Source: Bacteroidota bacterium
GTDB taxonomy: Bacteria > Bacteroidota > Bacteroidia > UKL13-3
Assembly (NCBI GenBank): GCA_027488905.1
Contig: JAIYAT010000010.1
Span: forward strand, 85,061-149,060
Reading direction: 5' to 3'
Length of the DNA: 64,000 nucleotides
This document shows positions 34,327 through 37,200 of the stretch, piece after piece. The stretch's first letter is position 1. Each line of letters begins with the position of its first letter. The notes under the pieces are model-generated. The model did no database searches. It had not been told where the DNA came from and saw only the letters and a program-made list of their open reading frames with translations. Both the position numbers and the translations under genes were made by a program.

Positions 34327-37200
34327 ATGACTCCAAAGAAACTCTTTTTATTAGATGGTATGGCCTTGGTTTACCGCGCTTATTTTGCCTTTAGCCAGAA
34401 TCCTAGGGTAACAAGTTATGGTTTTAATACTTCGGCTATTTTTGGATTTACAACCACTTTATTAGACGTAATCAAAAGAGAAAAGCCAACTCATATTGGC
34501 GTTTCATTCGACACCTCGGCGCCAACTGCTAGGCATATAGAGTTTGAGGCATACAAAGCCCATAGAGAAGAAATGCCAGAGGACATTAGCAAATCTTTGC
34601 CTTTTATCATGGATGTTGTTAGAGCTATGCGCATTCCACTTTTGGTAATGGATGGCTATGAAGCGGATGATATCATTGGAACCCTTGCCAAGCAAGCAGC
34701 TAAAGAGGGCTTTACTGTTTATATGATGACGCCAGATAAAGATTTTGCGCAGTTGGTGGAGGAAAATATATTTGTATATAAACCAGCACGCATGGGCAAT
34801 GACATTGAAATAATGGGCGTGCCAGAAGTCTTAAAGAAGTGGGAAATTTCTGAGGTAAAGCAAGTCATTGATATTTTAGGTTTATGGGGTGATGCTGTAG
34901 ATAATATACCTGGGGTGCCGGGAATAGGTGAAAAGACTTCTAAGCTGTTGGTTCAAAAATATGGCAGTGTAGAGGGCTTGTTAGCGCATACGCATGAGCT
35001 AAAAGGAAAACAAAAGGAGAATGTAGAAAACAACAAAGAGCAAGCTTTACTCTCTAAGCGTTTGGCTACTATTGATATCAATGTTCCTATTGCTTTTGAG
35101 GAAGAGAAATTGCTGCTAGAGCCAGCAGACAAGGAGGCAACAGAAAAATTGTTTGCTGAGCTTGAGTTTAAAACTTTGGCGACAAGGTTGTTTGGAGCTC
35201 CATCAAATTCTAGCGAAGTCGCCAAGCAGGCAGGCAGTGATAAGTCGAGTGGACAAGGTGCCGCTGGGGTATTTGATTTGTTTAACCAAGGGGCATTAGG
35301 TGCTAAGAGCGAAGAAGGCGCGGCGGCGAAGCCGCCGCGCCTAGATCACCTACCCAGCACAGAAGACCAAGCCCAGAACTATGCATCTATCATAGATACC
35401 CCTCATCAATATCTTTTGGTTCAAACCGAAGAAGAAATTAACAGTTGCTTAGCAGAATTATTACTGTATACAGAGGTTTGCTTTGATACCGAAACCTCTC
35501 AATTAGAAAGCACCGAAGCCGATATTGTTGGACTCTCATTCGCAGTTAAGCCTCACCATGCTTGGTACATACCCTGCCCAGAAAATTATGAAGCTGCTCA
35601 ACAACTATTGAAAAGGTTTGAACCAATTTTTCTCAGTGAAAACATTACCAAAATTGGTCAGAATATTAAGTATGATCTTAACATCTTAAAGCGCTACGGA
35701 CTTACACTTAAAGGAAAGCTCTTTGATACTATGTTAGCACATTATGTAATTGATGCCGACCTTAGACATGGAATGGATTATTTAAGTGGAATTTATCTAG
35801 GGTACCAGCCCGTGAGCATCACCGAGCTTATTGGCAAAAAGGGAAAAAACCAATTGAGCATGCGCGATGTGGATTTGGAGAAAGTGAAAGAATATGCTGC
35901 AGAGGATGCAGATATTACACTTCAATTAAAGCAAAAGCTAGCACCAGAGTTACTAGAGAAAAACGGCGGTGATTTATTAGAGAATTTAGAACTCCCTCTC
36001 ATTGATGTGCTAAGTGACATGGAAATTGAAGGCATTAAAATCAATGAGGCATTTTTAAATGATTACTCTAAAGAACTAGAAGCAGACCTGCATATTTTAG
36101 AAAAAGATATTTTAGCACTCGCAGGAGTTCCCTTTAACATTAGTTCTCCTAAACAGTTGGGTGAAGTTTTATTTGACCATTTAAAGCTTGACCCAAAAGC
36201 TAAAAAAACTAAAACAGGTCAGTATAAAACAGATGAAGATGTTTTGCAAGGGTTGTCTGAACATGAAATTGTAAAAAAGATTTTAACAGTAAGGCAAATG
36301 CAAAAGCTAAAATCTACTTATGTAGATGCCTTGCCAACAATGATAAACCCTTTAACAGGAAGGGTGCATACCAGCTTTAACCAAGCGGTTGCTGCCACTG
36401 GTAGATTAAGTTCTACCAATCCAAATCTGCAAAACATACCAATCAAAACAGATAGAGGCAAAGAGGTGCGAAAAGCCTTTATTCCGCGCAATGAAGAGTA
36501 TGTTTTATTAAGTGCAGATTACTCTCAAATAGAACTTAGAATTATAGCTTCAGTTGCCAAAGAAGAGGCCATGATAGAAGCTTTTAAAAACAAATTAGAC
36601 ATTCATGCGGCTACAGCCGCTAGGGTTTACAATAAAGACTTGGCAGAGGTAACACCAGAAGAAAGACGCAATGCCAAGGCAGTTAATTTTGGAATTATCT
36701 ACGGTCAAAGTGCTTTTGGGTTGAGCCAAAACTTAGGCATCAGTAGAAAGGAAGCCGCACAAATTATAGAAGAGTATTTTAAATCGTACCCTGGCATCAA
36801 AAGATACATGGATGATACCATCAATTTTGCCAAAGAAAATGGTTATGTAGAAACCATCATGGGCAGAAGACGGTACTTAAGGGACATTAATTCTGCTAAT
36901 TTTACAGTTAGGGGTTTTGCAGAAAGGAACGCAATTAATGCACCCATCCAAGGTTCTGCTGCCGATATGATTAAAATGGCTATGATTAAGATTCACGCTG
37001 CCATGAAAGACCCTGCCAATGGCATTGTTCATTCGCGCATGGTATTGCAAGTGCATGATGAACTAATATTTGATACCCATAAGAGCGAAATAGAATTACT
37101 AAAACCATTAGTTACTTCCAATATGGAATCTGCAATGGAATTATTAACCCCCGTGGTAGCAGAAGTTGGCGTTGGCGAAAACTGGTTAGAAGCGCATTAA
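34327..37200 (+). CDS. polA: DNA polymerase I
   Basis: Repair and Okazaki-fragment processing polymerase, 957 residues. The 5' nuclease (about 1-290) shows LLDGMALVYRAYFAF and MDGYEADDIIGTLA. The 3'-5' exonuclease looks active: FDTETSQLE, GQNIKYDLNIL and YAAEDAD hold the expected metal-binding acids. The polymerase has motif A LLSADYSQIELRI, motif B RRNAKAVNFGIIYG and motif C LQVHDELIF. The linker between nuclease and exonuclease (about 295-350) is Ala/Gly/Ser-rich and carries an in-frame GC-rich palindrome (residues about 330-339). Two GGTTYRAACC dyads lie in the exonuclease part. The 3' end overlaps the convergent carboxylase gene by 4 bases. Confidence 0.96.
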   Translation: MTPKKLFLLDGMALVYRAYFAFSQNPRVTSYGFNTSAIFGFTTTLLDVIKREKPTHIGVSFDTSAPTARHIEFEAYKAHREEMPEDISKSLPFIMDVVRAMRIPLLVMDGYEADDIIGTLAKQAAKEGFTVYMMTPDKDFAQLVEENIFVYKPARMGNDIEIMGVPEVLKKWEISEVKQVIDILGLWGDAVDNIPGVPGIGEKTSKLLVQKYGSVEGLLAHTHELKGKQKENVENNKEQALLSKRLATIDINVPIAFEEEKLLLEPADKEATEKLFAELEFKTLATRLFGAPSNSSEVAKQAGSDKSSGQGAAGVFDLFNQGALGAKSEEGAAAKPPRLDHLPSTEDQAQNYASIIDTPHQYLLVQTEEEINSCLAELLLYTEVCFDTETSQLESTEADIVGLSFAVKPHHAWYIPCPENYEAAQQLLKRFEPIFLSENITKIGQNIKYDLNILKRYGLTLKGKLFDTMLAHYVIDADLRHGMDYLSGIYLGYQPVSITELIGKKGKNQLSMRDVDLEKVKEYAAEDADITLQLKQKLAPELLEKNGGDLLENLELPLIDVLSDMEIEGIKINEAFLNDYSKELEADLHILEKDILALAGVPFNISSPKQLGEVLFDHLKLDPKAKKTKTGQYKTDEDVLQGLSEHEIVKKILTVRQMQKLKSTYVDALPTMINPLTGRVHTSFNQAVAATGRLSSTNPNLQNIPIKTDRGKEVRKAFIPRNEEYVLLSADYSQIELRIIASVAKEEAMIEAFKNKLDIHAATAARVYNKDLAEVTPEERRNAKAVNFGIIYGQSAFGLSQNLGISRKEAAQIIEEYFKSYPGIKRYMDDTINFAKENGYVETIMGRRRYLRDINSANFTVRGFAERNAINAPIQGSAADMIKMAMIKIHAAMKDPANGIVHSRMVLQVHDELIFDTHKSEIELLKPLVTSNMESAMELLTPVVAEVGVGENWLEAH
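35316..35342. repeat. GC-rich perfect palindrome inside polA
   Basis: 12-bp arms (AGGCGCGGCGGC and its complement) around a GAA loop, 24 of 24 arm bases paired. It is almost entirely G and C in a gene that is otherwise AT-rich. It is in frame and adds about nine residues (E-G-A-A-A-K-P-P-R) to the interdomain linker. Confidence 0.85.

Follow-up and report, generated by a model that had tools for sequence, protein, structure and literature searches.

The locus raises the question of how a hairpin of almost pure G and C came to lie inside the coding sequence of an AT-rich polA gene. The host genome (G000) is itself AT-rich and comprises 3.55 Mb in 40 contigs; the window, that is, the whole stretch of 64,000 nucleotides analysed, corresponds to C23:85061-149060, and comparison against named collections identified the relatives of its polA as Bacteroidota MAGs. 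The features of the gene, its linker and the hairpin are the following:

34327-37200, + strand: polA, DNA polymerase I, 957 aa (open reading frame and Pfam)
PolA residues 5-172: 5_3_exonuc_N (Pfam match)
PolA residues 177-269: 5_3_exonuc (Pfam match)
PolA residues 364-542: DNA_pol_A_exo1 (Pfam match)
PolA residues 576-955: DNA_pol_A (Pfam match)
35134-35415, + strand: PolA interdomain linker, residues 270-363 (gap between Pfam domains)
35316-35327, + strand: left arm of the hairpin, 12 nt, AGGCGCGGCGGC (inverted-repeat listing)
35328-35330, + strand: GAA loop of the hairpin (inverted-repeat listing)
35331-35342, + strand: right arm of the hairpin, GCCGCCGCGCCT, exact reverse complement of the left arm (inverted-repeat listing)

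The 27-bp hairpin AGGCGCGGCGGC-GAA-GCCGCCGCGCCT (35316-35342, + strand) has perfect 12-bp arms and a 3-nt loop, with G or C at 23 of its 27 bases in a gene of 40% GC, as the first-pass annotation had described. Its placement between the 5′ nuclease and the 3′-5′ exonuclease also agrees with the Pfam boundaries (end at residue 269, start at 364). The hairpin is in frame within the open frame 34327-37200 and codes for residues at about 330-339 (E-GAAAKPPR-L); linker comparison and Pfam together support a coding GC palindrome in a linker which varies among relatives in both sequence and length. The word "inserted", used in the same annotation, is an interpretation, since the linkers of relatives are too divergent to reveal a clean insertion. 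Among the 22 inverted-repeat pairs of the window (length ≥10, distance ≤60), no other consists almost entirely of G and C. Within 398 kb of G000, two hairpins with arms ≥8 and GC ≥0.7 were found against none in simulated sequence (one first-order run per stretch), namely the polA hairpin and an intergenic, terminator-like one. The polA hairpin itself was considered as an intrinsic terminator and rejected, as it has no T tract and the downstream letters are AGATCACCTACCC.

The hairpin had been proposed as a possible copy of some small, mobile palindrome, an idea set to fall if the hairpin proved unique in the genome and was kept at this position throughout the relatives. It is unique, and it is not so conserved. 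Indeed, a search with a 25-bp core, allowing up to 3 mismatches, gave matches in 2 of 64 family genomes: one in G000, which is the polA copy, and one in its sister G014, with 1 mismatch and at a contig end. When a 15-bp core was used with up to 2 mismatches, five distinct places were found in G000, polA included, the nearest others being Gly/Ala-rich coding stretches in pntB, in a GH20 enzyme (both identities supported by Pfam) and in an 848-aa ORF, where the motif is GGYAAATG. As the polA hairpin sequence is unique, there is no dispersed family in G000, and the proposal of a mobile palindrome family in this genome is not supported.

Comparison within the genus, where polA was recovered from 16 of 19 genomes, places the hairpin in a small group of relatives. 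In G014, whose PolA fragments are 96-97% identical to those of G000, the hairpin is present with one mismatch to the core. The G014 gene is split over two contigs (at the start of C15 and the end of C18; L023, L020, L031), both ending inside the hairpin and one of them with a run of eight C; this break may reflect either an assembly or read problem or population variation. The polA of G010 is likewise split over two contigs in the linker region. The next relative, G007 (PolA 90%), also carries a perfect GC hairpin at this point of the linker, but one of another sequence, GGGGTCGGC-TGC-GCCGACCCC, which we read as lying inside three similar 10-codon units. In the other polA loci of the genus that were scanned (L008-L024, of which L020 to L024 are partial genes or a paralogue), no GC-rich hairpin with arms ≥8 was seen, and the linkers of relatives are also rich in Ala, Pro and Glu.

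Over a broader set of 99 polA loci, or 94 genes, which amount to fewer species because they include duplicates (e.g., L008/L025, L015/L027, L016/L026, L017/L028) and one paralogue (L022), four have a perfect hairpin with arms ≥8 and GC ≥0.65: L006 (the gene of the window), L007, L050 and L073. All four lie in the linker, at a gene fraction of 0.335-0.353. Three more hairpins, of GC 0.5-0.6, lie outside the linker in L056, L079 and L085. The hairpin of L073 (4944-4962), CCCCCTCC-GAA-GGAGGGGG, is a member of a repeat family, with 38 matches at ≤3 mismatches in its own genome (G019); the genome of L050 (G020) has 26 and the genome of L043 (G021) 62, while the reversed control pattern gave none in these three genomes. 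In the rows of this search at 1 mismatch, a self-complementary place is counted once per strand. For profiles of the family, 8-10 copies per genome were taken from these 26-62 matches, all outside polA (L183, a polA copy, and L204, a contig-end match, were left out). These profiles recovered 3 of the 94 polA genes with E <0.01, each time in the linker: L043 (1.1e-5), L073 (2e-4) and L050 (0.006-0.007), the next best value being >1. The polA frames stay open through these palindromes:

L073:4944-4962: REP-like palindrome in the polA linker, in frame
L050:5028-5054: REP-like palindrome in the polA linker, in frame
L043, polA nt about 1013-1070: REP-like palindrome in the polA linker, in frame

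Thirty loci of these families were examined, and in L192, L196, L206 and L207 (around 1501) the copies sit within long open frames and seem to be read in frame.

Palindromes which enter a polA linker in frame as members of a repeat family are therefore seen in other polA genes and not in that of the window. The mechanism proposed for the window applies to some other Bacteroidota polA linkers and is not supported for G000. According to a review (PMC10969869), the Rickettsia palindromic elements (RPEs) invoked as its precedent are also in-frame palindromes inside protein-coding genes, but they are about 150 bp long and form many-copy families, whereas the window palindrome has 27 bp and a single copy; it is in frame, and the linkers of relatives do not align to give an empty site. 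The linker palindromes of L073, L050 and L043 look like REP sequences, with many copies per genome. The window hairpin resembles REPs, described in PMC3733652 and PMC6006769 as short GC-rich hairpins of 20-40 bp, in size and composition, but it is neither extragenic nor repeated at high copy number. A small mobile palindrome (REP- or RPE-like) that inserted in frame, with its other copies lost or present in an unsampled genome, would fit the 27 nt, which make whole codons, the repeat-family palindromes carried in frame by the same linker in L073, L050 and L043, and the GAA loop common to the window hairpin and L073. We consider it unlikely given the missing second copy in G000 and the lack of any match in 62 of the 64 family genomes; moreover, many of the other GC hairpins of G000, described below, stand in conserved motifs which are present in relatives and are thus not insertions. 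As for a cognate TnpA-REP (RAYT) gene, G000 has one Y1_Tnp match, in a 151-aa frame. Among the open-licence PMC papers listed for a few combinations of terms, we found no report of palindromes in polA linkers, which is weak evidence of absence.

The hairpin could instead be selected as an RNA structure, slowing the ribosome or the RNA polymerase between the PolA domains and so aiding folding or setting expression. When the gene was scanned in 60-nt RNA windows, the one with the hairpin was the most stable (−31.6 kcal/mol), and over the 94 polA genes the three strongest windows all fall in linkers, those of L006, L050 and L007; the distinct hairpin of G007 at the same place would also agree with selection. 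Yet only 15 of the 94 genes have their lowest-energy window in the linker region, with about 8 expected by length, no GC-rich hairpin was found in the other genus polA loci scanned, and other G000 hairpins are not confined to domain borders, as they lie within domains and motifs as well. Selection for RNA structure thus appears decidedly unlikely.

These other hairpins are places of the 19-base pattern S8N3S8 (eight G/C, any three, eight G/C), counted over whole genomes. Overlapping hits number 28 in G000, 27 in G014 and 24 in G007; among the 16 remaining genomes of the genus, the count per genome is 0-9. The 28 hits of G000 correspond to 17 places, and all 17 have a hairpin with an arm of ≥7 within the 19 bases; the same holds for 5.3% of random S8N3S8 letters and for 3 of 16 places from seven other genomes, these 16 being taken from among the matches listed for other genomes, plus G012. 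The arms vary from 7 to 18 bases and have nothing in common beyond being G/C; the two arms of a site match each other and not those of most other sites. By reading frame, ten of the 17 places are in genes, six lie outside long frames and one (C21:94118) fits neither class clearly. At least four of the six intergenic places have T-rich ends and are terminator-like. The coding ones are:

polA; pntB; GH20; DnaE; biotin carboxylase
dihydrolipoamide-dehydrogenase-like gene; MobA-like gene; ABC exporter
VWA-like ORF (weak Pfam match); large ORF at C32:1079

Of the nine genes other than polA, all but the ORF at C32:1079 were searched against Pfam; matches over the cut-off support the family of seven, and that of the VWA-like ORF stays below the cut-off. 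A second count, which covers whole genomes and is free of the bias from choosing stretches with hits, considered the places of GSCGSCNNNGSCGSC whose arms are complementary, expected at 25% if the four variable letters are independent. Complementary arms were found at 8 of 10 places in G000, 12 of 17 in G007 and 8 of 11 in G014, at 0 of 4 in G003 and 1 of 5 in G012, while G005 has no such places; G009, which is outside the clade formed by G000, G007 and G014, has 5 of 6, which counts against clade-specificity. Known structured RNAs were considered for four hairpin loci (L242, L252, L237 and L248) and set aside, as Rfam gave no match there at gathering score.

Chance is the simplest explanation to be weighed, as codons for Ala, Gly and Pro are clustered in linkers and GGC is the reverse complement of GCC; indeed, the linker codes for GAAAKPPR, and those of relatives have a similar bias in residues. 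However, permutation of synonymous codons within genes (arm ≥7, GC ≥0.75, 12 permutations, nested hairpins counted separately in real and permuted sequence alike) left a mean of 0.5 hairpins in the 698 kb of ORFs sampled from G000, where 9 real ones (8 places) are present, and gave 3 real against 0.5 for G007 and 0 real against 0.6 for G012. Hairpins of any composition are not in excess in G000 (205 real, 209.6 permuted). In a site test on two Gly/Ala, any residue and two Gly/Ala, the all-C wobble choice was found at 3 of the 35 sites able to form a palindrome and at 0 of the 91 others in G000, at 3 of 23 and 0 of 69 in G007, and at 0 of 23 and 0 of 87 in G012, which uses GGC and GCC more often than G000. 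The G000 and G007 stretches used in both tests were partly picked for holding hits, and their counts are inflated by this choice. Codon usage alone was rejected as the explanation, since both tests leave the excess of GC hairpins unaccounted for, and judging from these sequences the excess does not look like codon usage. With all 17 S8N3S8 places palindromic in addition, chance is a very unlikely origin for the polA hairpin.

A lineage-specific DNA-binding or DNA-modifying protein that prefers GC palindromes, with sites kept both between and inside genes, might account for hairpins which are intergenic as well as intragenic in three sister genomes. Some sites also hold their arms while the loop changes (GCA vs AAA in pntB, TCC vs TCT in DnaE). 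Nevertheless, arms which share nothing but G/C and vary from 7 to 18 in length make such a protein highly improbable.

The coding sites indicate how the hairpins could have arisen. The same motif is coded without a palindrome in three relatives for DnaE, in four for the dehydrogenase and in three for GH20. As for the biotin carboxylase, G000 has GCC GCC GCC GGA GGC GGC GGC where G005, the sole relative read for this motif, has GCT GCT GCA GGC GGA GGT GGC. In other cases the protein differs as well. The pntB of G000 codes for GGGGKAAAA with 11-bp arms, and its relatives for GGGAKGEAA or GGGVKGEAA. The ABC exporter of G000 (L243, G000:C27:123169) reads DAAAPGAAAS, with a right arm that matches the reverse complement of its left arm exactly for 15 bp; the relatives read DAAAPGAN (G005), DAAAPGAH (G009), DAAAPGAN (G012) and DAAAPVGQ (G003). 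One arm of this 15-bp mirror stands where the residues differ in the four relatives.

Mirrored arms which change the protein are, according to PMC7202029 and PMC8604942, the mark of template switching at a quasipalindrome, a class of mutation described there in E. coli lacZ reporters and in yeast coding genes, respectively. The likeness to the present sites is close: imperfect repeats turn perfect and their arms homogenise, and several adjacent amino acids are altered at once, within genes too. The difference is that here the process is deduced from sequence comparison across species and concerns GC-rich arms only. Perfect arms beyond chance and codon usage are present in our data, with the sampling bias of the chosen stretches, and the ABC exporter and pntB are consistent with mirrored changes in one arm, as judged from the sequences of relatives. 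We give about even chances to the reading that a template-switch mutation created the polA palindrome in place and that it was kept in an unconstrained linker. That it arose by the same process as the other sites is inferred, as its linker does not align with those of outgroups; which step of replication would be at fault and the lack of a selected function are inferred as well.

According to the template-switch reading, the process would start from a GC-rich stretch coding for Gly, Ala and Pro and holding an imperfect inverted repeat. During replication the polymerase would stall at this repeat and copy the nascent strand in place of the template, and the outcome would be a perfect inverted repeat (quasipalindrome correction). 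In PolA the hairpin would then be retained because the linker is unconstrained, and the same process in G000, G007 and G014 would yield the small genome-wide set of GC hairpins, about ten of them coding in G000. The restriction to GC-rich arms may reflect that only stable hairpins trap the polymerase. The distinct G007 hairpin at the same linker place speaks for template switching. Against it, no imperfect precursor is seen for polA, the absence of an excess among hairpins of all compositions means that a general process is not visible, the bias by which only GC-rich arms exceed expectation has no explanation, and the terminator-like intergenic places of G000 are palindromic for other reasons.

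As a possible genetic cause we considered exonuclease VII, for which a match over the cut-off was found in 7 of the 19 genus genomes and in none of the clade. It was likewise not found in 9 of the 16 non-clade genomes, some of them incomplete, so the result identifies no cause. We favour an origin of the polA hairpin in situ, in a linker which tolerates it, as part of an excess of GC hairpins at the level of the lineage (G000, G007 and G014). It is possible, though rather doubtful, that in one small Bacteroidota lineage palindromes are perfected by a GC-biased mutation process which rewrites the codons and amino acids of coding genes into perfect GC hairpins, with the linker of PolA, a polymerase of replication and repair, among its targets. 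If so, a type of mutation known in reporter and yeast systems would have left a countable mark in the coding genes of one bacterial lineage, and its bias, strand preference and genetic cause would be testable by comparing the three sister genomes. The open-licence PMC papers listed for few term combinations gave no report of a coding GC-palindrome excess in Bacteroidota, again weak evidence. The REP-like in-frame palindromes of other Bacteroidota polA linkers, for their part, extend the Rickettsia precedent of palindromes becoming protein. Nematomorpha mitochondria offer a further parallel, with perfect inverted repeats within conserved coding sequence for which PMC6649704 names template switching as a possible mechanism; those palindromes reach 284 bp, whereas the arms in the bacterial genes described here are of 7-15 bp.

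Finally, some minor observations were made along with these comparisons. At the unclassified place C21:94118 (L242) and at G007:C17:47620 (L252), AAGGCCCCGCGAAGCGGGGCCTT lies in stretches whose 164-aa open frames resemble each other between the two genomes. Four MAG contigs (L027, L031, L079 and L086) are labelled Chitinophaga pinensis, and these labels look unreliable because their PolA identities to the window spread from 97 to 55%. The polA linkers of L014 and L015 hold runs of Lys-Glu codons whose length differs between these two relatives, which suggests that repeat slippage may be another source of linker change.
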